Assembly (NCBI RefSeq): GCF_900112975.1
Contig: NZ_FONQ01000002.1
Location: 310,001 to 374,000, forward strand
Source of the DNA: Flavobacterium xueshanense
Lineage (GTDB): Bacteria > Bacteroidota > Bacteroidia > Flavobacteriales > Flavobacteriaceae
Length of the DNA: 64,000 nt
Direction of reading: 5' to 3'
In this document: piece by piece, positions 5,115 to 40,868 of the stretch
How the letters are laid out: every line of letters begins with the position of its first letter
Numbering within the stretch: the first letter of the stretch is position 1
Position numbers and translations under genes: made by a program
Notes under the pieces: generated by a model
Seen by the model: the letters and a program-made list of their open reading frames with translations, nothing else
Told to the model about the DNA's origin: nothing
The model's database searches: none

Positions 5115-5897
5115 ATGGAAAAATCACTTGTGTCCATAATTACTCCTTCTTTTAATTCTGAAAAATTTATTGTTGAAGCGATTCAATCGGTTCAGCACCA
5201 AACCTATCAGCATTGGGAAATGATAATAGTAGATGATTGCTCCACTGATGAAACGGTTTCTATAATTGAAGAAATCGCAATTAAAGACGCAAGAGTCCAA
5301 CTTTTTAAACTCGAAAAAAACTCAGGAACCGGAATTTCCAGAAACGCCGCTTTGGCGAAGGCAAACGGAAAATATATTGCTTTTTTGGATGCAGATGATT
5401 TGTGGAAACCAAACAAGTTAGCAGTACAAATTGAGTTCATGAAAGTGAATAATCTTCCTTTCACGTTCTCTTTTTATGAATGCATCAACGAAGCTGGACA
5501 ACCGCTTAACAGAAGAATCGAAGCGCCACTGCATCTTTCATACCGGCAGTTGTTTTTTTGTAATTATGTAGGGAATCTAACGGGTATCTATGACGTAAAT
5601 TACTTTGGGAAAATCGCTATTTCCTCCATCCGGAAACGACAAGACTGGATGATGTGGCTGACTGTTCTTAAAAAAATAAAATTCGCACAACTTGTTCCGG
5701 AGAGTTTGGCTTTTTATCGCATCAGAGACAACTCGATTTCTGCATCTAAATTTGATTTAGTAAAACATAATTTTTCAGTGTACAGATCATATCACCGTTT
5801 GAATTTAATTGGTGCAACACTTTGCATGATTGGTTTTTTGTTTACTCAATTAATCCTCAAACCACGTTATTCCAAGACCATTAAAGCATCGATTTAA
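5115..5897 (+). CDS. glycosyltransferase family 2
   Basis: This 260-residue GT-A protein starts VSIITPSFNSEKFI and has IIVDDCSTDET near residue 40 and FLDADDLWKPNKL near residue 95, the metal-binding DxD-like segment. A hydrophobic stretch near the C-terminus may anchor it at the membrane. It adds a sugar, probably early in assembly of the repeat unit started by the upstream sugar transferase, to which it is translationally close. Its last 17 bases overlap the 3' end of the opposite-strand CapK-like gene. Confidence 0.88.
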   Translation: MEKSLVSIITPSFNSEKFIVEAIQSVQHQTYQHWEMIIVDDCSTDETVSIIEEIAIKDARVQLFKLEKNSGTGISRNAALAKANGKYIAFLDADDLWKPNKLAVQIEFMKVNNLPFTFSFYECINEAGQPLNRRIEAPLHLSYRQLFFCNYVGNLTGIYDVNYFGKIAISSIRKRQDWMMWLTVLKKIKFAQLVPESLAFYRIRDNSISASKFDLVKHNFSVYRSYHRLNLIGATLCMIGFLFTQLILKPRYSKTIKASI

Positions 5898-7212
5898 ATT
5901 GCTTCAATTTCCCTCGATTGCTTCTTTCTAAAGTATCTTTTCGGATAAATATAAATTTTAAATTCGGTTCCAAATACAGTTCAATCGCCTTTTCAATTTT
6001 TTTAATTTGTGCCAAATTTAATTGGGTTTCACTCACATATTCAATTTCAAAAGTATCTATTTTGGTTTGTTTTATCACAAATTCTTTTACGTTTCCGTCG
6101 TCTTCAATAATGCTTTTTGTCACGTAATAGAAAGTAAGTCCGGGCGACTTTTTTCCGCTTGGCAAAATAGCAACATCATTAGTTCTTCCAATTAATTTTT
6201 TGAGAATTGGTTTTTGCAACGTGCTTTTTTCGTCCAAAATTCCAATATCGCCAATATCGTATCGGATAAACGGATGCGCTTTATTGAATAAGGAAGTAAT
6301 GACAATACGTCCTGAAGTACCGTTAGGAACTGCTTTATCATTGTCATCTAAAATTTCCACAAACAACGTTTCGGAATTCACCTGCCATTCATCATCTGGG
6401 TTCTGGAAGGCAATCAAATCCAGTTCTGAAGCGCCATATTCATTGACGATAGGAATCCCAAATTGTTTTTCCAATAAGAGTTTGTCTTCTTCAAAAAGCA
6501 TTTCAGAAGTTACCATGCACACTTTTAAAGAGGGACAAATGGCTGTTAATACAATATTTTTCTTTTGTAAAAATTTGGCAAACAAAACAATCGAACTCGT
6601 GTAACCGTTGATGTAATCGAATTTTTTAGTTCGAAAATGATTCAAAAATCCATCTAAAACTTTATCAGATAAATCGAAAATGGGAAACCTAAACCGATGG
6701 CTCAAAGCATCTTTTAAACGCTCTTTTTGATGGCCTATGAAATCCATTGGAATTCCATAAAAACGCGCTTGAAAGGATACATTAAAATCGATGCCGTACC
6801 AATCAAAACGATACATGTTTGAAGCCCAAGTCAACGCATGACAATATTTATCTTTGGCAAAAATAAAAGGAGTTCCGCTGGAACCAGACGTTTTATTGAC
6901 GTAAATGTTTTTAGCGGAATAGCCTTCCGAAAGCCTTTCCTGTAATGGTTTCTGTAAATTTTTCTTATTTAAAACTGGTAAATCTTCCCAGCGGGTAAAA
7001 GTTGTTACGCCGGTTAAATCTTTGTAAAAAATATTGTTTTGCAAATGAAAATGAACAATTTCCAATTTTTTATGTTCAACGAAAGTCTCGTGTTCTTTTT
7101 CAGAAAAGGCTACAATTTTCCGCAATTCGGCTTTGGCTTCCTTCATTGGGAAACTATTTAGCTGCAGCGATAAGTCGAATAGTGGGAACATCTTAAAGGT
7201 ATATTTCATCAA
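5881..7212 (-). CDS. CapK/PaaK-like adenylate-forming enzyme
   Basis: The protein is 443 residues. The phosphate-loop motif NKTSGSSGTPFIFAKD lies near residue 110, VNEYGASELD near residue 255 carries the YGxxE signature of adenylating enzymes, and FIRYDIGD near residue 320 is the hinge-preceding motif. The overall form is that of phenylacetate-CoA ligase relatives. Members next to polysaccharide loci, such as CapK, are thought to activate a carboxylic acid for transfer to a glycan. That role is an inference from position. It converges on the GT2 gene with a 17-base overlap and is read divergently from purD. Confidence 0.82.
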   Translation of the reverse strand: MMKYTFKMFPLFDLSLQLNSFPMKEAKAELRKIVAFSEKEHETFVEHKKLEIVHFHLQNNIFYKDLTGVTTFTRWEDLPVLNKKNLQKPLQERLSEGYSAKNIYVNKTSGSSGTPFIFAKDKYCHALTWASNMYRFDWYGIDFNVSFQARFYGIPMDFIGHQKERLKDALSHRFRFPIFDLSDKVLDGFLNHFRTKKFDYINGYTSSIVLFAKFLQKKNIVLTAICPSLKVCMVTSEMLFEEDKLLLEKQFGIPIVNEYGASELDLIAFQNPDDEWQVNSETLFVEILDDNDKAVPNGTSGRIVITSLFNKAHPFIRYDIGDIGILDEKSTLQKPILKKLIGRTNDVAILPSGKKSPGLTFYYVTKSIIEDDGNVKEFVIKQTKIDTFEIEYVSETQLNLAQIKKIEKAIELYLEPNLKFIFIRKDTLERSNRGKLKQFKSML

Positions 7213-28808: not shown

Positions 28809-29060
28809 TTAACTCCTATTTTTGTTTTTTTTAATTGGGTTTTCTGTGCTTGTTTTGACTTGGGACGTTCCCATTATAGAGTCAATTTGTTTTTTACCTA
28901 TGGCCTCTAACCAAGATATTTGTTTTGTTTTGCTTTTTTGCCAGGGACATGTATTTACTGCTTTTTCTATTTCAGGTAAGGCTATTTTACCTTTTTTTTG
29001 GGCGTAAGATGGTGCAGGGAATAATGCAAAGCATACCGAAAAGTACATGTATTTTTTCAT
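28809..29060 (-). CDS. small secreted protein, 83 aa
   Basis: A signal peptide MKKYMYFSVCFALFPAPSYA with likely cleavage before QKKGK is followed by about 62 charged residues with one Cys (NTCPWQ). I do not recognise the family. It converges on atpG across the terminator. The start is supported by the clear signal peptide. No perfect promoter is seen upstream (only TAGTATTTG with an extra base). The 296-base stretch 29061-29356 is AT-rich and shows no supportable gene. Confidence 0.5.
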   Translation of the reverse strand: MKKYMYFSVCFALFPAPSYAQKKGKIALPEIEKAVNTCPWQKSKTKQISWLEAIGKKQIDSIMGTSQVKTSTENPIKKNKNRS

Positions 29061-29685: not shown

Positions 29686-29898
29686 TTATTGATTTAGTTT
29701 TGTCATATCGATGGCTCTCATTTTAAAATATATCTTTATAAACACTACAGCAATAAACAATCTATAGCCTCTGTATACCCAAATATTTACTGGGAAAGAG
29801 AATAATTCGTAGGTGTCTCTGATTTCAATTAAGGAATAAATGAAGTTTATGGTAAAGAAAATTCCAAAGAATAAATAAAAGTTTTTGGATAGCTTCAT
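29686..29898 (-). CDS. small two-helix membrane protein, 70 aa
   Basis: The protein starts MKLSKNFYLFFGIFFTINFI. A loop with ELFSFPVNIWVYRGYR and a second helix RLFIAVVFIKIYFKM follow. I do not recognise it. The ATG lies 3 bases after the stop of the 55-residue gene at 29902, indicating translational coupling. Possible roles include a peptide-associated immunity or transport helper; this is a guess from the nearby RiPP-type operon. Confidence 0.55.
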   Translation of the reverse strand: MKLSKNFYLFFGIFFTINFIYSLIEIRDTYELFSFPVNIWVYRGYRLFIAVVFIKIYFKMRAIDMTKLNQ

Positions 29899-29901
29899 TT
29901 G

Positions 29902-30069
29902 TTAGTGATTGTTTGGTATTGCTCTCATTAGTCCAGCCATAAAATTGGCCCAATCAGAAATTATCGCAGCTGCCGCAGTAATAAGCATTAAAAATGCAGT
30001 GAAAGTCGGTTCTTTTATAGTTTTTACTTTTGCAATATTTAGTTGATCTAAAAATGGTTGTAAATTCAT
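29902..30069 (-). CDS. 55-aa single-helix peptide, first gene of divergent transcript
   Basis: This short gene encodes 55 residues starting MNLQPFLDQLNIAKVKTIKE. The second half is an Ala-rich hydrophobic helix (TAFLMLITAAAAIISDWANF) ending AGLMRAIPNNH. It has no Cys and only four Ser/Thr, so it is not an obvious lanthipeptide precursor. It resembles small holin-like or leaderless bacteriocin-like peptides in general form only. It is the first gene after the minus-strand promoter at 30274, which shares an operator with the RiPP operon. It stands 3 bases before the next small gene. Confidence 0.5.
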   Translation of the reverse strand: MNLQPFLDQLNIAKVKTIKEPTFTAFLMLITAAAAIISDWANFMAGLMRAIPNNH

Positions 30070-30273
30070 TTTTTCATTTTTTTAAAATCCTGTTTTTAAA
30101 AAAGTTTCTCGAGAACTTTTATGCTCATTTTTTAATGGATATTGTAGCTTTATAAACTCCATGCTCTGTATTTTTTTTAAGGGTTACGTACCAGCTGAAT
30201 TATTCCCTTTTTTTGATAAAGCTTATATTATTTGACTATCGTTTTTATTTTTAATACTTTTCCTTTCTGAGGC

Positions 30274-30304
30274 CAAAACTAGGATAGTGGCAGACGTTGT
30301 GCAA
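30274..30304 (-). promoter_or_regulatory. minus-strand promoter, TTG-N20-TAGTTTTG
   Basis: TAGTTTTG (30274-30281 on the minus strand) is a perfect -7 element. TTG at 30302-30304 lies 20 bases upstream. The palindromic operator begins 11 bases beyond the TTG. The same three parts with the same spacings occur at 40786-40868. It would transcribe the small membrane-protein genes 29902, 29686 and 29357. Confidence 0.65.
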
Positions 30305-30315
30305 ATACTTGTTAT

Positions 30316-30334
30316 CGGAATTCACGGAATTCCG
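30316..30334. promoter_or_regulatory. palindromic operator, site 1
   Basis: CGGAATTCACGGAATTCCG, with half-sites CGGAATTC and GAATTCCG around a 3-base centre. It lies between the divergent small-peptide transcript and the TPR-AraC regulator, so one bound protein could control both. The regulator itself is the obvious candidate ligand. This is not proven, since AraC-type domains often prefer direct repeats. Confidence 0.6.
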
Positions 30335-30422
30335 ACAAGATGTATTTTTAAAATATTAAAAATCAATACAATACAAATAACTTAGAAATTTAGTTTTTTA
30401 CATTATTTTAATTTACATAATC

Positions 30423-30430
30423 TACTTTTG
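30423..30430 (+). promoter_or_regulatory. -7 promoter element (TACTTTTG) of the TPR-AraC regulator
   Basis: A perfect TAnnTTTG 17 bases before the regulator ATG and 88 bases after operator site 1. Confidence 0.5.
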
Positions 30431-30447
30431 TACTAAACCAAATAACA

Positions 30448-32154
30448 ATGACTAACCAACAATTTTTAAAAATAGTTCTTGCTGTACTGTTTCCTTTCTT
30501 TTTATGGTCGCAGACAAGTAAGCCAATTCAAAAATCGGATTCTTATGAAGATTTAAAAAAAGAGTTTATTTCACAGAAAAGTGATTATAATAAGAAAAGA
30601 TTTATTTTGGAAATCATTTCTAATTCTTATTCTAAAAAAAATAATTTAAATCTTTCACGGAGTTTTTATCTTTTATCAACTTTATACAAAGGAAATAAAG
30701 CAATTCAATACCTTGATTCATCTATTGCTTATTCCACTAATCAAAATGATTATAATTTTCCAGCATTATCTTATTCTAGAAAGGCATATGAGTTAAGAAT
30801 GCAATTTAAGTATAGCAAGGCTTTGGACAATTTTTTTAAAGCAGAAAAATATGCTAATGGTAATAATGAAGATTTAAATTTTTATATCAAGCGGTCAATT
30901 GGTGTTTTGAGGTCAGAGGAATTAGGTGAAGTAGAGGAGGCTTTGTTACTATACCGTGAATGTTTAAATTATATTAGAAAAAAGGAATTATCTTCTTTAA
31001 AATACAGTAGCGATTATCACAATCTTTTATTTGTGCTTGCGGATGCACATAAATCATTAAAGAATTTGGACTCTGCTAGTTTTTATAACAAATTAGGGTA
31101 CAAAGAGTCTATTAAAACTAACGATAAGTTTTACATACCCTATTTTATTTTAAATGAAGGTGCAAATGAAATGTTAAAGAAAAATTATAAAGCATCTTTA
31201 GATAGTATAAATAAGGCATTGCCTCAGATAATATTAGATAAAAATTATGGTAATATACTGGCGTCTTATTTTTATTTAGGAAAGTCTTACGCAGGTATGA
31301 GTAATGAAAATAAAGCGATTCAAAATTTTATCAAAGTAGATTCTATGTATTTATTAAATAAAAGAATTACACCAGAGTTTATAAGTGGATATTCCTATTT
31401 AATTGAATATTACAAAAAAACTGGCGACAAAGAAAATCAATTAAAATTCTTAAATAAGATTATGAGTATTGATAGCATATTACATAGAAACTATAAATAT
31501 TTAAATAAAGTTTTAGTAAAAGAATATGATACCCCGCACTTAATTGCAGAGAAAGAAGCTTTAATACAATCTTTGGAAAAAAGGCAATCTACTTCTTATA
31601 TCTGGATTGTAGTTTTAGTTGTAGGTGTTACAGGCTTGTTTGGCTACCAATTTTATTTAAAAAAACAACACCAAAAACGATTTGAAGCAATTCTGCATCC
31701 AGCCATGACTACCGAAGAAAATAGTACTGTACTACAAACACAGCCTATAACACCTGATGCTAAAGAAAATCAAGTACAACAAAGTCTATCAGATGAAATA
31801 ATACTTGAATTATTGGAAAAATTAATAGTATTCGAAAACGATAAAGGCTTTATAGAAAAAACAATTTCTATTCAAAAATTGGCTTTACAATTGAGTACCA
31901 ATACTAAATATTTGTCTAAGGTAATTAATGAACAAAAAGGAAAAACGTTTGTACAATACATTAATGAGCTCCGGGTAAATGAAGCAGTTTTGCAAATGCA
32001 AGCACAACCTATTTTGCAAAATTATACCATAGCTTCATTAGCAAGTGAGTTTGGTTTTAATTCGGCAGAAGCCTTTTCGGCTGCTTTTTATAAAAAGTAT
32101 AAAATCAAGCCTAGCTTTTTTATCAAAGAGTTGAGTAAAACTAGAGCTAGTTAA
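30448..32154 (+). CDS. membrane-anchored TPR-AraC family regulator
   Basis: The protein is 568 residues. An N-terminal signal or anchor (FLKIVLAVLFPFFLWSQ) is followed by about 350 residues of TPR-like helical pairs (for example KALDNFFKAEKYANG), expected outside the cytoplasm. A membrane helix lies near residues 383-400 (YIWIVVLVVGVTGLFGYQF), and a C-terminal AraC-type double helix-turn-helix follows (IQKLALQLSTNTKYLSKVIN near 475; TIASLASEFGFNSAEAFSAAFYKKY near 530). It is a one-protein signal transducer that could sense a periplasmic signal and bind DNA. The operator palindrome lies before it and again just after it, before the subtilase operon. Confidence 0.85.
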   Translation: MTNQQFLKIVLAVLFPFFLWSQTSKPIQKSDSYEDLKKEFISQKSDYNKKRFILEIISNSYSKKNNLNLSRSFYLLSTLYKGNKAIQYLDSSIAYSTNQNDYNFPALSYSRKAYELRMQFKYSKALDNFFKAEKYANGNNEDLNFYIKRSIGVLRSEELGEVEEALLLYRECLNYIRKKELSSLKYSSDYHNLLFVLADAHKSLKNLDSASFYNKLGYKESIKTNDKFYIPYFILNEGANEMLKKNYKASLDSINKALPQIILDKNYGNILASYFYLGKSYAGMSNENKAIQNFIKVDSMYLLNKRITPEFISGYSYLIEYYKKTGDKENQLKFLNKIMSIDSILHRNYKYLNKVLVKEYDTPHLIAEKEALIQSLEKRQSTSYIWIVVLVVGVTGLFGYQFYLKKQHQKRFEAILHPAMTTEENSTVLQTQPITPDAKENQVQQSLSDEIILELLEKLIVFENDKGFIEKTISIQKLALQLSTNTKYLSKVINEQKGKTFVQYINELRVNEAVLQMQAQPILQNYTIASLASEFGFNSAEAFSAAFYKKYKIKPSFFIKELSKTRAS

Positions 32155-32188
32155 CTGTTTTAAAATAAGTAAATAGAATTTTAGGTAG

Positions 32189-32207
32189 CGGAATTCACGG
32201 AATTCCG
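32189..32207. promoter_or_regulatory. palindromic operator, site 2
   Basis: The same 19 bases as site 1, CGGAATTCACGGAATTCCG, without change, in the 127-base gap before the subtilase gene. It ends 44 bases before the -7 element. Confidence 0.6.
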
Positions 32208-32251
32208 GTAAAAACTTTACATTTTTATTTACAGGAATCGTACAACTTTAA

Positions 32252-32259
32252 TACATTTG
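32252..32259 (+). promoter_or_regulatory. -7 promoter element (TACATTTG) of the subtilase-LanB operon
   Basis: A perfect TAnnTTTG 22 bases before the subtilase ATG. It overlaps TTGAACCATTAA (32257-32268), a 12-base match to the arm of the palindrome repeat at 12388. Confidence 0.5.
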
Positions 32260-32281
32260 AACCATTAAAATTACCTTAATT

Positions 32282-33979
32282 ATGAAATTATTGCCGCTTT
32301 ATTATTTTACTTGTTTTGTTTTTATTGCAAATATTGTAAGCTGTTTTTCTCAAGAGAACACGATAAGCAGTAATTTATTCAGCATAAAGCAGGATAGTTT
32401 ATTAAATAATTGGTTTCAGAAAGATTACTTGCAAGACGGTCTACCAGGTATTTCCTTAGACAAATGGTATAAACAAAATAAAAGAATACCAAAAACTAAT
32501 GAAATAATTGTTGCAGTTATTGATACTAAAATTGATTTAAAACACGAGGATTTAGAAAATCAAATATGGATCAACACAAAAGAAATTGCAAATAACGGCA
32601 TAGACGATGATAGCAATGGATTTATTGATGATTTAAATGGTTGGAATTTTTTAGGATATAGTAATGGAGACTATATAAAATGGGGGAACAATGAGTTTGT
32701 GCGTATTATTAGAAAATGGGCACAGGTATTTAAAGATAAAACAGCGGCACAACTATCCAAGAATGAATTAAATCAATTCAAAGAATATGAAAGAGCCCAA
32801 TTAAAATTTGGAACTGAAACTAAATTTTATAAAAATTGGTTAAGGTCTTTGCAGTATCTTATACAAGTATATCCATTGGTCAAAGACACATTAAAATACT
32901 ATTTTCCAAAAGAAGACTATACAAACCAACAGTTGGATAGTTTGTATCAAAAGCATAAAATCAATGACAAAAGTTTTAGGAGCAGAAGGGATGATAACGA
33001 CAAAGATCTAGGAGCATTAATTGATTATATGCGGGTTAGCTTAGGGTCAAATCAAAATACTTTAAAAGATATAAAAGATCAAGAATCACAACTTAATTCC
33101 ATTGTAAATGAATGTTTAAATCTTGAATTTAATGAACGCCATTTTATTAACGATGACGTATTTGTCGCAAAAGGAAACAATGAAATAACAAATACAACTA
33201 AAAAAGAGCACACGATAGAGAATCACAGCACACTAGTTTCTGGAATAATTGCAGCTGATAGAACCAATGATATAGGAATAAAAGGGGTTGCACCTCATAC
33301 TAAGATAATGCCTTTGGTTATTTGTAGTAATGCAGATGAGCATGATAATGATATTGCTGCAGCAATTCGTTACGCAGTTGATAATGGTGCAAAAGTAATC
33401 AACATGTCTTTTGGTAAGGAATTTTCGTTGTACAAAAACAGGGTAATAGACGCTTATAAACATGCCGAAAAGCATGATGTTTTGCTCGTTCATGCTGCAG
33501 GAAACAATAGTTTTAATGTTGATGAAAACCCATATTATCCAAGTGATGTTGATTATGAAAACCCAGATGAAGTTGTAGACAATTTTATAACTGTGGGTTC
33601 AATATCACAAAAAATAGATAGTAATTTTGTGTCTGAATTCTCTAATTATGGCAAAAAAAATGTGGATTTATTTGCTCCTGGAGATAAAATTTATACTACT
33701 ACAGCTGGAAATAGTTATGCGTATGATTCAGGAACTTCACTAGCAGCACCTATGGTTTCAGGGGTCGCTGCTTTGATCTGGTCATATTATCCTAAACTTA
33801 CAGTTCAGGAGGTAAAACAAATCATTTTAGATTCGGGTACAGCCTATGATATTGAGGTTTTGGTTCCCGGTGGAGAAGGTAAAAAAGTAAAATTTTCAGA
33901 ACTATCTAAATCTGGAAAGGTTTTGAATGTCTATGATGCGATGGAACTCGCTAAAAAAGTGAGTAAAAAGAAACGATAA
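32282..33979 (+). CDS. subtilisin-like S8 peptidase of RiPP operon
   Basis: The protein is 565 residues. The signal region ends FIANIVSCFSQ, with IVSC usable as a lipobox. The catalytic triad is Asp81 (VAVIDTKIDLKHEDL), His315 (NHSTLVSGI) and Ser486 (GTSLAAPMVSGV), with oxyanion Asn408 (AAGNN). About 230 residues separate Asp and His, far more than in subtilisin. This insert carries many charged residues and occurs in related Bacteroidota enzymes. Its stop overlaps the LanB start as TAATG, so the two are translationally coupled. A role in cutting the leader of a modified peptide outside the cytoplasm is the natural inference. Confidence 0.9.
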   Translation: MKLLPLYYFTCFVFIANIVSCFSQENTISSNLFSIKQDSLLNNWFQKDYLQDGLPGISLDKWYKQNKRIPKTNEIIVAVIDTKIDLKHEDLENQIWINTKEIANNGIDDDSNGFIDDLNGWNFLGYSNGDYIKWGNNEFVRIIRKWAQVFKDKTAAQLSKNELNQFKEYERAQLKFGTETKFYKNWLRSLQYLIQVYPLVKDTLKYYFPKEDYTNQQLDSLYQKHKINDKSFRSRRDDNDKDLGALIDYMRVSLGSNQNTLKDIKDQESQLNSIVNECLNLEFNERHFINDDVFVAKGNNEITNTTKKEHTIENHSTLVSGIIAADRTNDIGIKGVAPHTKIMPLVICSNADEHDNDIAAAIRYAVDNGAKVINMSFGKEFSLYKNRVIDAYKHAEKHDVLLVHAAGNNSFNVDENPYYPSDVDYENPDEVVDNFITVGSISQKIDSNFVSEFSNYGKKNVDLFAPGDKIYTTTAGNSYAYDSGTSLAAPMVSGVAALIWSYYPKLTVQEVKQIILDSGTAYDIEVLVPGGEGKKVKFSELSKSGKVLNVYDAMELAKKVSKKKR

Positions 33980-36189
33980 TGAACAACTACCAAGTTCGTC
34001 CTTTCTCGCACTATGTTTTAAGAACCCCTTTATTTCCTTTGTCTTTCTATTGGGATGTTTTGGAAAAGTATTCTGAAAAGACCTTATTGTTGCAGTTTGA
34101 AAACCCTTATGTTAGAGAAGCCATTCGTATGGCTTCCCCGGAACTAGTAACGGCTTTAGACAAATGGAAATCTGATCCTTCCAGTCTATCCCATAAAAAA
34201 AGGGATGGATTACAGCTTAGCTTACTGAAATATATTGCGCGAATATCAACTCGTTGTACGCCTTTCGGATTATTTGCTGGTTGTACAGTGGGCAAAATAA
34301 CTTCTGAAACGAAGATTATACTCAATTCAACTGAAAATTTTAGTCGTTTTACACAATTTGACATGCAATTTTGGGTGGCACTATTACACCAATTTGCTAA
34401 ACGAGAAGAAGTTACAACCCGTCTCAACTATTATCCTAATAATTCGATCTATGCTCTTGGGGATTTTTACCGATATGTTGAATACAACTATGTAAAAACA
34501 AAAAGAGAGCACAGTATTTCAGCATTGCGAAAAACAGCACTTTTAAGTGATTTAGTGCTCCAAGCAAAATCCGGAATGACTGTTGATGAAATGATTTCTC
34601 TAATTGCCGACGATGATTCTGAAACCGCAGAAGCTTTAGAATATATTAATCAACTTATCGATTTTCAGTTTCTGGTAAATGAATTGGATGCAACAGTTAC
34701 AGGTAGTGATGAATGGGCGCGTGTTTTTTCAATCATTGATAAAATTCCGAATTTTAAAAAAGAGTCTCTCCTTTTGCAAAGTATAAGAACTCAATTTTTA
34801 GTATTGGACCAAACGCTTGTCCCTTATGAAAAAAACTATGAAGCTATAAAGGATTTAATTCAGAAAATAGGTGTGGATCATGATGAAAAATATCTTTTTC
34901 AAACTGATTTAAATACGACCGCTTCCGTAAATACTTTGAGTACTAGTTCTCAAAAAAAAGTCTTCCAAGCGGTTCGTTTTTTAAACGGAATTCAAAAGCA
35001 AAAGAAGTCTGAAAACCATACGAGTTTTATAAAAGCATTCACTCAAAGGTATGAATCCAGAGAAATGCTTTTGGCAACTGTTTTGGATACTGAAACGGGA
35101 ATTGGATATCTTCAAAATTCTGAAATGAATGATACGCATGAGATTTTGGAGCATTTTTCTTTCAAAAGTAAAGTTCAAGAATCAGTCATTCAGTCGTGGT
35201 CCTCTAATGATTTTATACTGGAGAAAAAACTACGGAAATGTAACCTGAAAAACGAAAAAGCCGTATCGCTTTCTGAGAATGATTTTCCGGATTTTGATCC
35301 TACTTGGAATAATGCACCAGCTACCTTTTCGGGAATGATTGAAATTGCATTGCATCAAGAAAAAGAATTGCTTTCAATTGAATCTTCGGGTGATGTTAGC
35401 GCAGCAAAATTATTAGGGCGTTTTTGCAATGGAAATGATGCAATTTACAATTTGACCAATGAAATTGTAATAAAAGAAGCGACCTATCATTCTGATAAAA
35501 TTCTGGCTGAGATCGTTCATATTCCGGAATCAAGAACTGGTAATATATTAAGAAGACCTGTTTTCAGAGCATTTGAAATTGCCTATTTGGCTAACTCTGG
35601 AGTAAAGCAAGATTACACGATTGATCTTAATGATTTAATGATCTCGATACGCAACAACAAAATTATTTTGCGATCTAAGAAGTACAATACAGAAGTTATT
35701 CCTTGTTTGTCAAATGCCCATAACTATTCTAATAAATCGCTGCCTATTTATCATTTTTTATGCGATTTACAATCGCAAGATATAAAGCCCATTTATAGTT
35801 TCAGTTGGGGTGTTTTAGAAACACATTATGATTTTTTTCCAAGGGTTGAGCATAACGGAGTACTACTTTCAAAATCAAAATGGATGGTAAGTAAAACTGA
35901 AATTATGTCTTTTTATAAAATGGATGGCAATCAATTATTTGAAGATTTTTCGATTTGGAGAAAACAACGAAGCATTCCTCGTTTTGTAAATTGGGCCTAT
36001 TTTGACAACACACTATTACTTGATTTTGAAAAAGAAATCGGGATTCAATTATTTTTAAAATCAGTTGTAAATCATGCTAAAATCACTTTAGAAGAATTTC
36101 TATTTAGAGAGGAATTTGTTGTGAAAAACGCAAACGGTGAAAATTTTGCCAATCAGTTTATACTATCCTTTTATAAAGAACAATTGTAA
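33979..36189 (+). CDS. lantibiotic dehydratase family protein (LanB N-terminal/glutamylation part)
   Basis: The 736-residue cytosolic protein has the family motifs: N-terminal YVLRTPLFPLSFYW, ARISTRCTPFGLFAGCTVG near residues 85-102, LRRPVFRAFEIAYLAN near residue 530 and FFPRVEHNGVLLSKSKW near residue 620. These proteins use glutamyl-tRNA to activate Ser/Thr of a precursor peptide. The length fits the glutamylation part only. The elimination part is encoded separately just downstream, as in thiopeptide and pinensin-type systems. No LanC cyclase is nearby. Confidence 0.88.
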   Translation: MNNYQVRPFSHYVLRTPLFPLSFYWDVLEKYSEKTLLLQFENPYVREAIRMASPELVTALDKWKSDPSSLSHKKRDGLQLSLLKYIARISTRCTPFGLFAGCTVGKITSETKIILNSTENFSRFTQFDMQFWVALLHQFAKREEVTTRLNYYPNNSIYALGDFYRYVEYNYVKTKREHSISALRKTALLSDLVLQAKSGMTVDEMISLIADDDSETAEALEYINQLIDFQFLVNELDATVTGSDEWARVFSIIDKIPNFKKESLLLQSIRTQFLVLDQTLVPYEKNYEAIKDLIQKIGVDHDEKYLFQTDLNTTASVNTLSTSSQKKVFQAVRFLNGIQKQKKSENHTSFIKAFTQRYESREMLLATVLDTETGIGYLQNSEMNDTHEILEHFSFKSKVQESVIQSWSSNDFILEKKLRKCNLKNEKAVSLSENDFPDFDPTWNNAPATFSGMIEIALHQEKELLSIESSGDVSAAKLLGRFCNGNDAIYNLTNEIVIKEATYHSDKILAEIVHIPESRTGNILRRPVFRAFEIAYLANSGVKQDYTIDLNDLMISIRNNKIILRSKKYNTEVIPCLSNAHNYSNKSLPIYHFLCDLQSQDIKPIYSFSWGVLETHYDFFPRVEHNGVLLSKSKWMVSKTEIMSFYKMDGNQLFEDFSIWRKQRSIPRFVNWAYFDNTLLLDFEKEIGIQLFLKSVVNHAKITLEEFLFREEFVVKNANGENFANQFILSFYKEQL

Positions 36190-36192
36190 AGT

Positions 36193-37041
36193 ATGGAAAG
36201 AGATTTTTGCATAGGGAGTGAATGGCTGTATTATAAAATATACACTGGAGTAAAAACAGCAGATCTTATATTGTCTGAAAAGTTTTATCCCTTAATTTTA
36301 GATTTACAAAAGGAAAAAATAATTTACAAATGGTTTTTTATCAGGTATAAAGATCCTGATGAACACTTAAGAATTCGTTTGTATTGTAAAACCCCAGAAA
36401 ATACTGCGACGGTAGTCGCCAGAATGTATCCGGTTTTAAATATGTTGTTGGAACAAAATAGCATTTGGAAAGTGCAAACGGATACGTACCAAAGAGAAAT
36501 GGAACGATATGGTAAAAAAACGATGATTGCTTCAGAAACATTGTTTTGGCATGATAGCGAAATGATAATACGTTATTTAGCGGTAAAGTCCTCTTTTGAA
36601 AAAAAGGAAATGCCCCTTTTATTTAGCTTTACTGCTATTGACACATTTTTAAATTCTTTTGGGTTAAGTAATTCCGATAAATTATCTTTAATGGATCAGT
36701 TACAACTGGCTTTTAAAAAAGAATTTGATGCGGATAAAAGTCTTAAAAAAGAATTAGATAAGCATTATAGAGAATTGTTTCCGGAAATGCAGCGGTTTTT
36801 ACTAGGAAAAGCGGCAGAAGATCATCCTGAAATTTTCAATTTTATTAGTGCAAAGAATAAAAAACACAATGATATGATTAATTCCATTAAAGGAAAATTA
36901 CAAATTCCTTTATCCGAATTTTTATGTAGTCACATTCACATGATGCTGAATAGACAATATACCTCGAAGCAAAGGCTGTATGAATTGATCATCTACGATC
37001 ATTTATATCGTTATTATAAAATTCAAGAATATAGAAAATGA
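36193..37041 (+). CDS. thiopeptide-type/SpaB_C protein (split LanB elimination part)
   Basis: The 282-residue protein has EWLYYKIYTGVKTADLILSE at the start and WFFIRYKDPDEHLRIRLYC near residue 50. TDTYQREMERYGKKTMI near residue 97 and ETLFWHDSE follow. The order matches the stand-alone SpaB_C or thiopeptide-type bacteriocin biosynthesis family. Members eliminate glutamate to give dehydroamino acids or, in some thiopeptide systems, form the central ring. It starts 3 bases after the LanB stop. Which of the two chemistries applies cannot be told. Confidence 0.87.
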   Translation: MERDFCIGSEWLYYKIYTGVKTADLILSEKFYPLILDLQKEKIIYKWFFIRYKDPDEHLRIRLYCKTPENTATVVARMYPVLNMLLEQNSIWKVQTDTYQREMERYGKKTMIASETLFWHDSEMIIRYLAVKSSFEKKEMPLLFSFTAIDTFLNSFGLSNSDKLSLMDQLQLAFKKEFDADKSLKKELDKHYRELFPEMQRFLLGKAAEDHPEIFNFISAKNKKHNDMINSIKGKLQIPLSEFLCSHIHMMLNRQYTSKQRLYELIIYDHLYRYYKIQEYRK

Positions 37042-37091
37042 AACGCCCATGACAATCGTCATTGACAAACAGTAATATGATTATAGGCGTT
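37042..37091 (+). terminator. hairpin after the RiPP operon
   Basis: Outer arms AACGCC and GGCGTT enclose a small perfect hairpin ATGAC-AATC-GTCAT (37049-37062). There is no strong T run directly after it, so it may be a structure that stops or protects the transcript. Confidence 0.4.
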
Positions 37092-37135
37092 CCAACTTCC
37101 AATAAAAACAAACATTATAAACAGATGAATTAAAA

Positions 37136-37165
37136 GGGTTTGGCTACTTATGTTAAACCCTATTG
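37136..37165. terminator. bidirectional terminator between convergent genes
   Basis: GGGTTT and AAACCC arms around a 13-base loop, with A/T-rich runs on both sides (TTTT on each strand), between the SpaB_C gene and the lipoprotein gene at 37187. Confidence 0.5.
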
Positions 37166-37186
37166 TTTTAAAGTAAAAGATGCAGT

Positions 37187-38146
37187 TTATTTAAATCCAG
37201 TTACTTCAAAAGTTCCGTTATTGATGGTATGCAGTAGCACACCATTATCAAAAACTTGAGTGTTTATTTCACCTCTACTTACTTTTAGTCCGTTGATGAT
37301 TAGGCGTTCTTTAATAATATAACTTCCTGAGGTTTGAAACTTTTTCCAATCGACGGGACGAATCCATAGTAATTGAGTAGCTCTAAAAATGCCAATGTAT
37401 TGCTCTAAATCGATCCTGTTTTCTGTACTGTTTTGGTCAAAAGTATAGGTTCCTTTATCCAAATCCCATAAATCTTTTTTGGATTTGATTATGGCGCGGT
37501 AACCGTTATCAGAATAGAAAAAAAACTGGTAAGGATTTGTTTTTAAACTTGAATCAAAACTTGAATAAGGTAGATTGGTTAAAAAATTTAGAGTGTTTGT
37601 TTCAAAATTTAGGTCTGAAATAAAACTAGTACATTCCGTGTTTCTAACATCTTGAATGGTTATTGTACCTTCTATATGTTTTCTTTTTTTATCAACATCC
37701 AACGCATCACTGTAAGATTGCTCCAGTAGTTCTCCTTTAAAATTAAAATGAAGATAATTTTTTGTTTCATCGTATTCAAAATTGGTAATTGTCATTAATC
37801 CTTTTGGATTAAAATCGGCTGTTTCAAAATGCATATTTTTATTGCGATAATCAAAAAGTGTGATGTTTCTTAAAGCACCATTTTTATTAAGGCGAAATTC
37901 GATTCTAAAACCCATATTATTAGAGCTATCATATCTACAGCTAGCGAATACACCGTTACAACTTTCGTTAGAACTTATAGAACTATTTGTTACTTTTAAA
38001 TTTTCATTATCAATTTTAATTTCGAAAGACCTTTTGATGTCCTCTTTTTCTATTTCGTCTTTATCACAGGAGTATAATACTAAGAATAGAAGTAATGAAG
38101 CTACATTAATTAAAAATCTCTCGAAGTATTTATTTTGATTTGTCAC
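37187..38146 (-). CDS. hypothetical lipoprotein, 319 aa
   Basis: The start is GTG. The signal FLINVASLLLFLVLYSCDKDE has its lipobox Cys near residue 27 followed by acidic residues. The rest is a beta-rich polar protein with three more Cys. The family is not recognised; similar small lipoproteins occur widely in Flavobacteria. It is convergent with the RiPP operon and separated by 193 bases from the following minus-strand pair. That gap shows nothing but AT-rich sequence. Codon use is strongly AT-biased like the rest of this island. Confidence 0.65.
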   Translation of the reverse strand: MTNQNKYFERFLINVASLLLFLVLYSCDKDEIEKEDIKRSFEIKIDNENLKVTNSSISSNESCNGVFASCRYDSSNNMGFRIEFRLNKNGALRNITLFDYRNKNMHFETADFNPKGLMTITNFEYDETKNYLHFNFKGELLEQSYSDALDVDKKRKHIEGTITIQDVRNTECTSFISDLNFETNTLNFLTNLPYSSFDSSLKTNPYQFFFYSDNGYRAIIKSKKDLWDLDKGTYTFDQNSTENRIDLEQYIGIFRATQLLWIRPVDWKKFQTSGSYIIKERLIINGLKVSRGEINTQVFDNGVLLHTINNGTFEVTGFK

Positions 38147-38339
38147 AGTTGTTTTTTACCATTATACTTGTATTAGTTTGGATTCAAATTGTATTTTCTT
38201 GTATTATAAACTCTGGATATAATTATTAATCTATCGGCATTCTTGCAAACAACTTTATCCATAAATTGTACAACTTAGTTATTTAAAGTATTTTAACTAG
38301 TCGTCTTGGTTTAAAATATATTTTTTATTATCGTAAATT

Positions 38340-39032
38340 TTAAAATTCTTTCCCGAGTTTAAGGCCAATCCTTATTAATTCATCATATCCTCCTCCAGTT
38401 TTAAAGAAATGGTTATCTCTTATTACAGGGAGTTGCCCCCTGATATTAATTCCGATGGTAAAGTTTTTTGGTAGAGTATAGTCGTATCCTAATGTTGTAA
38501 GATAGACAAGTGTTTCTGTATTCTTAACTAGATAAGATAATTCAGTGTTCTTAGTTACTGTTTCATCGTTATTCAGAGTAAAATTGTATTGAAAATAATT
38601 TTGATAAGTGATTCTTTGTATATTATATCCCACGCCATTTGAAAAATATAGTAAATGTTTTTGCTTTTTTATTAAATTTAAATAAAAATGAGATGCAAAT
38701 ACGATTTGACTTATTGTTTTGTTTTCTTTAAACGAAATTTCATAATTCTTGATTTCATTACTATTTATAGTTCTTTCATCACCGTATGAAAAAACAGCTG
38801 GTACATTGTTGAATGAGCTACCTTCTAATGAAATTGAAATACCATATCGTTTTTTTAGATTGAAATAATATTCCATTTCTAAACCTTTAGTCCTATCGTC
38901 AATACTCTGATCACTAGACGCTTCAATATAATTGACAGATATTTTGCTAAATTTGTTATTCGTTTGTGCTTGTAGATTTGAAAAAAGCATAGTAGCAATT
39001 GCTACTATGCATAATGTGTTGTTAATTTTCAT
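38340..39032 (-). CDS. outer-membrane beta-barrel-like protein, 230 aa
   Basis: A signal peptide (MKINNTLCIVAIATMLFSNLQAQ) is followed by alternating amphipathic strands such as EMEYYFNLKKRYGISISLEG and LVYLTTLGYDYTLPKNFTIG, and a terminal IRIGLKLGKEF ending in Phe. These are the marks of a small outer-membrane barrel. Its ATG follows directly on the stop of the 461-residue lipoprotein gene with no gap, so the two are cotranslated. The function is unknown. Confidence 0.6.
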   Translation of the reverse strand: MKINNTLCIVAIATMLFSNLQAQTNNKFSKISVNYIEASSDQSIDDRTKGLEMEYYFNLKKRYGISISLEGSSFNNVPAVFSYGDERTINSNEIKNYEISFKENKTISQIVFASHFYLNLIKKQKHLLYFSNGVGYNIQRITYQNYFQYNFTLNNDETVTKNTELSYLVKNTETLVYLTTLGYDYTLPKNFTIGINIRGQLPVIRDNHFFKTGGGYDELIRIGLKLGKEF

Positions 39033-40418
39033 TTATTGAACAATTTTTGTTAAATAAGGTTTAAAATAATACTGTAACTTATCAGCTGCTCTTACAGAGT
39101 ATTCCGTACCGTTATCATTGTATGTACCAGCTCCCGTGTCTCCAATAATTTGTGTTAAAACCGCTCTTCTGGAAACATTATTGTTATATCTTAATTTGCA
39201 GTTACCTCCAACTCTAACATCAAAGTTAATATCGATTTTAGGATCAAATGTAACTTTTTTCTGTTCAACATCCCAGCCTAATTTAACCGTTCCTTTTGCG
39301 TTTAAATTACCTGAAAAAGTATGATGAGATGCCCATGTCAATGTGTGCTCAGCTTCATGCATATTCCAATCGTCATCCCATAATATGTTTACATCTACCC
39401 AATTATGATTTCTCGCATCTCTTCTTTTTATATGCTGTCTAGTCATAAGTTGTCTCGAATCAGCAGACAGCGGAAAGACTAGATTATTATTATTATCTGT
39501 TGTCAAATTCGCTGAAGATCTCACCAATGTTATTGTTGTTGGTGTCAAAAATGTTCCCAAATGCTCCATCAAACGAATTTTGGGAATATTAACTTTCAGT
39601 ACATCTGCATCCATTATTTTTGTATGGTCTACGTTAAAGTTCAAAAAACCTTGCCATCCCTGAAAGGCCCAATTTGGAGGATTATTACTTATTATTACAG
39701 GATTTGGGTTAGGGTCAGAAGCAATTCCACTTTCAATATACACTGCGGGTCTAACAACTAAAACAGGATTATTATAGGCAAAATCGTCGTTTATTATAGC
39801 AATTGGTTGTAAACCATATATTCCATTTACAGATTGATAGCCATAATTATAATTTTGTTCAATCATTGGATCCCAAGTAAGTGTAATTGTGTTTTCATCT
39901 TCTAAATTAAAGTTTTCTTCATAAGGGAAATAAACGTCAAGTCCTTGTGATGCATAATACTCAGAAAGTTCATCATATGTATCCTCGATAGTTCTTTGAG
40001 TCGTTGAAGCGTTAATTTTTTTCAGTTGACTTTTCAAGTTGGGATATTGATCAATATTTTTTCGTACTTCGTTTATAAGAGTTTTTCTAAATGATTCTTT
40101 TGCAGAAATTTTTATGTTGTTTCTATTTCTGGATAGTAATAATAATTCCTCTTTCGATATGTTTTTTCCCAGTAGCGCATTTACAGTTACTGCTTCTGAA
40201 TTATCCCCTCTTTGATGTATTAGATCAACCAGATATTTGCGATTTTCTTTATCTGATAAAGTTTTACCTAATAATTGTGCAAACTCTTTCATCGCTTCAA
40301 TTTTATTTGATTTCGCTGAATAATTCATTTCCAAACTATTATCTTCAATTTTATCTTCTCTCTCGCAAGAATTTAATGTAAATATTCCTACTGCAATTAA
40401 TAATAAATATTTTTTCAT
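39033..40418 (-). CDS. lipoprotein with HEAEH motif, 461 aa
   Basis: The lipobox is LNSCE at residue 18. The N-terminal 130 residues are helical and highly charged; the middle is Asn- and Pro-rich. The segment DDDWNMHEAEHTLTWASHH near residue 355 contains an HExxH motif, followed by a beta-rich C-terminal domain. The motif could mark a zinc peptidase, but no other peptidase landmarks are visible. It is first in a minus-strand operon under the promoter at 40786, with a leader of about 360 bases. The family is not recognised. Confidence 0.6.
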   Translation of the reverse strand: MKKYLLLIAVGIFTLNSCEREDKIEDNSLEMNYSAKSNKIEAMKEFAQLLGKTLSDKENRKYLVDLIHQRGDNSEAVTVNALLGKNISKEELLLLSRNRNNIKISAKESFRKTLINEVRKNIDQYPNLKSQLKKINASTTQRTIEDTYDELSEYYASQGLDVYFPYEENFNLEDENTITLTWDPMIEQNYNYGYQSVNGIYGLQPIAIINDDFAYNNPVLVVRPAVYIESGIASDPNPNPVIISNNPPNWAFQGWQGFLNFNVDHTKIMDADVLKVNIPKIRLMEHLGTFLTPTTITLVRSSANLTTDNNNNLVFPLSADSRQLMTRQHIKRRDARNHNWVDVNILWDDDWNMHEAEHTLTWASHHTFSGNLNAKGTVKLGWDVEQKKVTFDPKIDINFDVRVGGNCKLRYNNNVSRRAVLTQIIGDTGAGTYNDNGTEYSVRAADKLQYYFKPYLTKIVQ

Positions 40419-40601
40419 GTCATTTTTAATTTTTTGTTGTTTTCTAAAAAGCCACTAATTCATAAGAGCTTTCTAAGATTTTAAACTGTTGTTTTCCAAT
40501 ATGGATATTCTACTTGTAAACAGAAATTCACTATGTCAGAAAAATTTAAAATTTTTTATAGAATAATCAAACTTTATCTTTCCGAGATAATTTGGTAATG
40601 T

Positions 40602-40846
40602 AAAGTTTCTCGAGAACTTTTGGGCTTAGTTTTTTAGAGATCATAGCACGATAACTCTTTGCTGTGTTTTTTCTGAAAGGGTTACAGTACAGCTGAAGTA
40701 TTCCCTTGTAATTGGCCAATTGATTTTAAAAAGTGATTTAGATTTAGATAACGTCTTACCCAAAAGACTTTCACTTTCTTAAAGCCAAAACTACCCTCAT
40801 ATATTTTAACACACAAACACTTGTTATTGGAATTCGCGGAATTCCG
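40602..40846 (-). repeat. promoter-leader element, copy 2
   Basis: The partner of 30101-30334, in direct orientation 10.5 kb away. Shared blocks are AAAGTTTCTCGAGAACTTTT (40602-40621), the 27-base GGG...CCC block (40679-40705), GCCAAAACTA and the palindrome. The stretch 40419-40601 between this element and the lipoprotein ATG is AT-rich leader with no gene. Confidence 0.7.
40786..40816 (-). promoter_or_regulatory. minus-strand promoter, TTG-N20-TAGTTTTG
   Basis: TAGTTTTG (40786-40793) and TTG (40814-40816), 20 bases apart and 11 bases from the palindrome, an exact copy of the layout at 30274-30304. It would drive the 461-residue lipoprotein and barrel genes. Confidence 0.65.
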
Positions 40847-40868
40847 TGTCCAAATTCCGTGAATTCCG
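40828..40868. promoter_or_regulatory. palindromic operators, sites 3 and 4
   Basis: Site 3 is TGGAATTCGCGGAATTCCG (40828-40846). Site 4, on the other strand at 40852-40868, reads CGGAATTCACGGAATTT. Two adjacent sites 5 bases apart suggest cooperative binding. The plus-strand GNAT gene at 41005 lies on the other side and could also be affected. Confidence 0.55.

Follow-up and report, generated by a model that had tools for sequence, protein, structure and literature searches.

A palindrome at three operons of a Flavobacterium xueshanense RiPP island as the predicted operator of the island's own TPR-AraC regulator

The stretch of DNA analysed here, called the window, comprises 64,000 nucleotides of Flavobacterium xueshanense (contig NZ_FONQ01000002.1, positions 310,001 to 374,000) and holds an island for a ribosomally synthesised and post-translationally modified peptide (RiPP). 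One short palindrome stands before three operons of this island, which encode small peptides, a protease with LanB proteins, and lipoprotein-like proteins. We infer, with a probability of about four in five, that the palindrome is bound by the island's own regulator, a protein that joins a tetratricopeptide repeat (TPR) domain to an AraC-type helix-turn-helix (HTH), and that the three units are switched on together through it. An earlier note on this DNA had proposed a compact regulon that includes the AraC-type gene. That interpretation is partly supported: it appears right in its core, with the same operator at all three operons, and gains strength from conservation throughout the genus, but it had overlooked a leader RNA and a missing precursor gene. 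Among the open-licence papers that literature searches listed (at most 20 titles per search), none seemed to deal with this operator, regulator or RNA.

The palindrome occurs at four places in the window.

30316-30334, strandless: operator site 1, a palindrome with a 3-bp spacer, in the gap that separates the regulator gene from the divergent small-peptide operon
32189-32207, strandless: operator site 2, ahead of the protease/LanB operon
40828-40846, strandless: operator site 3, the proximal site of the lipoprotein-operon promoter
40850-40868, strandless: operator site 4, 22 bp further upstream than site 3

Sites 1 and 2 are one exact 19-mer, CGGAATTCACGGAATTCCG, and sites 3 (plus strand) and 4 (minus strand) are copies with 2 mismatches. 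A scan of the window for the 19-mer gave 6 strand-matches at these 4 places (mean 0.04 and maximum 1 in shuffled windows), which confirmed the identical pair and the near-copy at site 3 reported in the earlier note. The fourth copy, also reported there, exists but begins at 40850 and not at 40852; it is the second member of a tandem with site 3 (centres 22 bp apart) and not a separate promoter site. Across the entire genome (3,469,487 bases, up to 3 mismatches), 8 strand-matches fell at 6 places, namely the four island sites and two 3-mismatch places (C18:80977 and C24:76279) inside open frames that measure 300 and 287 codons from stop to stop. The reversed pattern gave 0 matches under the same conditions. 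The many unrelated copies that the earlier note had named as the sign of a dispersed repeat are thus not seen in the genome-wide scan that it had proposed.

The promoters next to these sites carry the following elements.

30302-30305, minus strand: TTTG -33 box of the divergent promoter
30274-30281, minus strand: -7 box TAGTTTTG of the divergent promoter
32252-32259, plus strand: -7 box TACATTTG of the protease/LanB promoter; the palindrome edge is 43 bp away and TTTG is absent at -33
40814-40817, minus strand: TTTG of the lipoprotein-operon promoter
40786-40793, minus strand: -7 box TAGTTTTG of the lipoprotein-operon promoter

When checked letter by letter, both minus-strand promoters had the geometry first noticed, that is, the palindrome, 11 bases, TTG, 20 bases and TAGTTTTG, and the -33 box of the divergent promoter was verified likewise. 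The protease promoter is longer by about one helical turn, as had also been seen (44 from the edge of the 19-mer), and this difference of a turn is conserved across the genus. If the full 20/21-bp palindrome is taken as the starting point, its edge is 33 bp from the box at the divergent promoter and 43 bp at the protease promoter. The regulator's own promoter fits the idea of four co-regulated promoters less well than the three with tight spacing, as it lies far from its site, with 92 bp between the distal site and the last box in the window, and its spacing is looser. Flavobacterium sigma-A promoters with a TAnnTTTG -7 box are described in excerpts of PMC9723704; the -7 consensus is common to both, while the promoters studied here form two sub-types with a fixed spacing to an upstream operator.

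We examined the same geometry in other species. Searching with the LanB C-terminal protein gave matches in 67 of 398 Flavobacterium genomes at E<=1e-30, and 39 stretches were fetched from these matches, leaving out G172, G358 and matches weaker than that of G086. A regulator gene is carried by 37 of the 39, giving 38 loci with the window; the other two (L107 and L108) have LanB but no close regulator and were excluded from the counts. Relatives with a species name (18 loci) belong mostly to Flavobacterium, among them F. omnivorum and F. glaciei (LanB C-terminal protein 88% and 74% identical, respectively). The operator pattern was TCGRAATTC-N2/3-GAATTYCGA, with 18 scored positions of which at least 13 had to match. 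All 38 loci have an operator no more than 150 bp downstream of the regulator's stop codon, and 32/38 have one no more than 300 bp upstream of its start. Among the six upstream misses, L080 and L084 start near a contig end, L101 scores 12, L079 and L086 have none in reach, and in L076 the regulator start is misplaced because the frame is broken by stops. The three Bacteroidales loci among the named relatives, with LanB C-terminal proteins 39-40% identical, had no operator at the score used.

At the divergent promoter, the distance from the palindrome to TAnnTTTG is 33 bp in 22 loci and 34 in 6 (28 boxes for 32 sites). At the RiPP-operon promoter it is 43 in 29 loci, 42 in 4 and 44 in 1, with 33 and 54 once each (36 boxes for 38 sites). 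The sequence of the spacers is conserved far less than their length, with an average identity of only 39-40% against 28-31% expected from composition, and up to 86-88% in single pairs. The two promoter types also differ in their elements: TTG stands 23-24 nt before the -7 box in 28/28 divergent promoters and has no preferred place in 34 RiPP promoters, and the -7 box is TAGTTTTG in 27/28 of the former and TATATTTG in 25/34 of the latter. A tandem second site 21-22 bp away precedes the regulator in 27/36 loci, compared to a mean of 0.007 and a maximum of 1 after shuffling; the window has such a tandem at 40828/40850 and not before the regulator gene. The regulator's own promoter is less regular: the distal site and the last box are 113-118 bp apart in 19 of the 29 loci that have both features and 59-179 in the other 10, and 7 further loci lack a core or a box. 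Because the site is distant and the spacing looser there, autoregulation is possible but weakly supported.

Regulator and palindrome tend to occur in the same genomes. The palindrome in its 2-bp form (<=1 mismatch) occurs in 67/398 Flavobacterium genomes, compared to 2/398 for a reversed control, and the regulator at E<=1e-90 in 51/398. The 2-bp form is present in 43/51 regulator-bearing genomes and in 24/347 others (Fisher p 3.6e-32), although these are genomes of related species and the counts are not independent. Five of the 8 regulator genomes without the 2-bp form (G000, the genome of the window, and G223, G256, G316 and G415) have a 3-bp form in the island. This form, with an ACG/CGT core, is found in the islands of these five and of G029; four of the six regulators concerned fall in one supported branch, that of the window's protein, and those of G316 and G415, outside the tree, are 65% identical to the window's. 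The 3-bp spacer was considered as a marker of one regulator branch and this was weakened by F. omnivorum and G279, so the spacer tracks the regulator imperfectly. Outside the islands, the matches that were inspected stand at further regulator genes (L144 and L147), at the end of a contig that has fragments of a regulator in another part (L146), inside unrelated coding genes (L141-L143), upstream of double-glycine peptide genes on contigs other than that of the LanB island (L145 and L148) and upstream of a lipoprotein (L149, position 19771). The peptides of L145 (~5180-6130), where an operator precedes four of the type MKLSLxxLKxxAE...GG...CH, belong to a different double-glycine family.

The regulator itself is encoded as follows.

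30448-32154, plus strand: regulator with a hydrophobic N-terminus, TPR helices, a hydrophobic segment near residue 384 and an AraC-type HTH_18 at 478-558

Pfam matches to HTH_18 (E 4.8e-12) and HTH_AraC (1.6e-07) are above the curated cut-off, and the TPR match is sub-threshold. An AlphaFold model built with 21 sequences has TPR helices at 33-348, a long helix at 362-416 and the HTH region at 449-567 (mean pLDDT 81, pTM 0.57). A hydrophobic segment at about residue 385 was detected in 31/42 regulators at the chosen hydropathy threshold. The protein thus looks like a TPR-AraC protein anchored in the membrane. Foldseek matched the model to TPR proteins, foremost peptide-bound eukaryotic ones, with Rap pheromone receptors lower in the list (RapF, 3ulq, at rank 30, E 3.2e-05), which would be compatible with peptide sensing. 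The C-terminal domain contains the two HTH domains of AraC/XylS-type regulators, and its candidate sites adjoin the core promoter as those of AraC/XylS activators (Pfam HTH_18) do. Unlike in these activators, a hydrophobic helix links the HTH to a TPR domain whose start resembles a signal peptide. AraC proteins usually bind direct repeats, whereas the site of the island is a strict palindrome. With the RRNPP/Rap peptide receptors it has the TPR superhelix in common, but it has in addition a membrane segment and an AraC-type DNA-binding domain, and its better Foldseek matches are eukaryotic TPR proteins. Regulator-like proteins recur in the searched genomes, with at least 4 near-full-length matches each in G004 and G017, for example. 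The sister genome G256 has two tandem regulator copies (L139, 10858-14426), 91% and 64% identical to the window's.

These features suggest how the regulon may work. The regulator would span the inner membrane, in vivo placing the TPR domain outside and, across one membrane helix, the AraC-type HTH inside. The TPR domain would read a signal, most likely an extracellular peptide and perhaps the island's own product, and two HTH domains would fill the half-sites GGAATTC/GAATTCC. At the divergent and lipoprotein promoters, where the site ends just upstream of the TTTG -33 box, a bound activator could touch sigma. At the RiPP-operon promoter the site is one helical turn further up, and the bound activator would replace the -33 box, since that promoter has none. 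The signal would in this way switch on the small-peptide, protease/LanB and lipoprotein operons jointly.

Several observations weigh against this proposal and bear on the alternatives to it. The palindrome might be bound by a different chromosomal regulator, with the AraC-type protein of the island controlling something else. In keeping with this, the 24 genomes without the regulator at E<=1e-90 do have a match (two each in G164 and G248; the inspected matches, in 14 of the 24, are 1-mismatch sites), and in one of them, G084, the site may be genuine without this regulator because it precedes a leader RNA (L123). Conversely, G011, G209 and G377 have the regulator and neither form as searched, G011 having weaker sites. 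A stop breaks the regulator copy in both G223 and G415, yet their sites persist, the operators of L145 and L148 stand before double-glycine genes away from LanB-island contigs, and the 3-bp form also occurs on another regulator branch, at both sites of F. omnivorum and at one site of G279. The hydropathy threshold missed the membrane segment in 11/42 regulators. A looser degenerate pattern adds one place in the genome of F. xueshanense, G000:C23:102310-102328 (L171 1511-1529), 4 mismatches from the 19-mer; this copy is off-island, intergenic and unexplained, and could be chance or a further target since it lies between two divergent long frames. Against a different regulator stand the co-occurrence in 43/51 as opposed to 24/347 genomes, the palindrome on both sides of the regulator gene in 32/38 loci and on at least one side in 38/38, and the sister G256, which lost LanB but keeps regulator and operators together. 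We regard a different regulator as quite improbable.

It is also conceivable that the site is a repressor operator, at which the regulator would keep the promoters shut until a signal made it leave the DNA. AraC-family proteins can repress, tandem sites 21-22 bp apart also suit cooperative repression, and our preference for activation comes from the position of the sites alone. However, the 28 divergent and 34 RiPP promoters with standard spacing have their site ahead of the core promoter at a fixed helical phase, clear of the -7 box, and a -33 TTG at a preferred place is lacking in the RiPP promoters; activator-dependent promoters have this appearance. Repression is thus improbable to us, and a dispersed repeat, the end of a mobile element or a chance palindrome scarcely credible. 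Short AT-rich palindromes do arise easily, and the matches in L141-L143 lie inside unrelated coding genes, but the genome of F. xueshanense has, at up to 3 mismatches, only the four island copies and two 3-mismatch matches inside open frames, the spacing to the promoter is fixed in dozens of species, and the reversed control appears in 2/398 genomes versus 67 for the pattern. Activation by the island's own regulator is the reading that we prefer.

The operon behind site 2 carries the following genes.

32282-33979, plus strand: S8 subtilase (Pfam), first gene of the operon here
33979-36189, plus strand: LanB N-terminal (dehydratase) protein, Lant_dehydr_N E 1.2e-126
36193-37041, plus strand: LanB C-terminal protein of a split LanB, Lant_dehydr_C E 4.6e-65

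The LanB dehydratase of class I lanthipeptide clusters is thus present, as two proteins. In NCBIfam, the protein at 36193 is above the cut-off for a thiopeptide-type bacteriocin biosynthesis family, the other nine window proteins scanned reach no cut-off, and no LanC family match was found among the ten window proteins scanned, the rest of the genome not being searched. The usual gene order in relatives is regulator, precursor, 1-3 proteases, LanB and LanB C-terminal protein; exceptions are L071, with a second regulator, and L093 and L094, without a full protease match. Precursor-like peptides were recognised by pattern in 34 loci (35 peptides), with a leader usually ending in GG or AG, and a profile made from them matches the other three loci (L074, L091 and L102), accounting for all 37 relatives. 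In the window the regulator-protease gap is only 128 bp and holds no precursor peptide (32155-32281), and the subtilase comes first because the precursor gene of the relatives is missing. The profile found no credible precursor elsewhere in the genome (best E 0.048 over 15 positions, inside a 259-codon frame). In the sisters G256 and G415 the protease likewise stands directly behind the operator and the precursor gene is missing, and LanB is absent from their fetched stretches and from the genus search for these genomes. The missing precursor and the LanB-less sisters indicate that the window's branch of the island is being remodelled, judging from gene content. Bacteroidetes class I lanthipeptide clusters have LxLxKx5L leaders, often ending in GG, according to excerpts of PMC7268733, and share with our loci the split LanB, a subtilisin-like protease and, in the relatives, a similar leader. 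They differ in that the window has no precursor, and the excerpts do not mention this regulator and operator. More families of small GG-leader peptides, often cysteine-rich, occur near the island in L090, L091, L104 and L105.

The two minus-strand operons encode small peptides and lipoprotein-like proteins.

29902-30069, minus strand: p55, counterpart by position of the relatives' double-glycine bacteriocin-like peptide; 75-78% identical in the sisters G256 and G415
29686-29898, minus strand: p70, small membrane protein, possible immunity protein; relatives in L075, L081 and L094 and a stop-containing one in L070
29357-29584, minus strand: p75, small membrane protein, 85-89% identical in G256 and G415
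28809-29060, minus strand: p83, small protein whose start resembles a signal peptide, 67-68% identical in G256 and G415
39033-40418, minus strand: lipoprotein-like protein of 461 aa, no Pfam or NCBIfam match
38340-39032, minus strand: protein of 230 aa, no Pfam match
37187-38146, minus strand: lipoprotein-like protein of 319 aa, no Pfam match; relatives beside the island in G029 and G223, one of those in G223 behind an operator

The tiny membrane peptides that had been assigned to the regulon do have an operator at their promoter, and are better described as positional counterparts of double-glycine bacteriocin-like operons. The double glycine is present in the counterparts of the relatives and lacking in p55, and the Pfam match of one relative's peptide to Bacteriocin_IIc is below the cut-off (E 0.062 only). 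In operator-bearing relatives a leader RNA often precedes peptides such as MNLDNLNLVELNAQEVQEVDGG..., and p55 holds that position. p55 was also considered as a LanB precursor and rejected, as the precursor profile misses it.

The similarity of the two minus-strand leaders extends beyond the promoter, and the shared part is an RNA module at the start of the transcript.

30160-30222, minus strand: leader RNA module, pseudoknot-like (model R1, 60.6 bits)
40658-40720, minus strand: leader RNA module (model R1, 69.5 bits)

A 50-aa frame at 40567-40719 (minus strand), for which a protein search finds relatives, was rejected as a peptide gene, since several of these have stops and the conserved nucleotide pattern is RNA-like. 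An RNA model from 15 sequences matches 93/398 Flavobacterium genomes. The modules are often in tandem, ~89 bp apart; in L134-L138 they form stand-alone arrays that have a terminator-like hairpin and point towards atpG. Module loci in relatives include L127, L129 and L133-L138. An alignment of 86 matches has 76 distinct rows, since some loci were fetched twice. Its outer stem shows pairing in 96.7% of cells, 16 of them double-changed. For the pseudoknot GCU/AGC the paired share is 99.6%, where one cell is double-changed and six are changed on one side; for an alternative pairing CUG/CAG it is 78.8%. The alignment was fitted to the outer stem and not to the pseudoknot. None of 500 shuffles reached the covariation score of 0.125, and slid controls gave 0.011-0.084; a stem test by swapping of 3' arms was uninformative (mean 4.52, shuffled 4.47). 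The evidence for the pseudoknot is modest because its pairs hardly vary.

No Rfam family matched at gathering scores in window positions 20000-50000 or in all of L070, and four short E-value scans gave nothing that reached the gathering score of its family. The nearest was SAM-II (RF01726), full-length at L070 18612-18664, with 22.0 bits against a gathering score of 44 (E 0.016 for 101 bases); two L134 modules gave 17.2 and 16.6 bits, and the same scan did not find SAM-II in L129 1490-2250 or window 30040-30350. PreQ1 appeared once, in L129, with 15.6 bits. We take these sub-threshold scores as leads to the type of fold and not as membership, SAM-II being the most telling. The H-type pseudoknot with an A-rich linker is common to SAM-II and the leader RNA, but the latter scores half the gathering value and occurs as tandem modules.

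A wider proposal, which we offer tentatively and think unlikely to hold in full, is that the regulator reads the island's exported peptide in the periplasm, as a trans-membrane analogue of RRNPP receptors, and activates bacteriocin-like peptides, RiPP enzymes and lipoproteins via two helical geometries. The leader RNA of two units, built of unclassified H-type pseudoknot modules and possibly a distant tandem SAM-II-like ligand sensor, would add a second cis-acting layer.

For one member of a recurring type of regulator, the analysis thus predicts the operator to the single base, the regulon and a rule for promoter spacing (33 or 43 bp). This makes it possible to test directly which signal it reads, how it contacts DNA and which peptide clusters it may control. 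The same search revealed an RNA, present in almost a quarter of the sampled Flavobacterium genomes, that matches no Rfam family at threshold.

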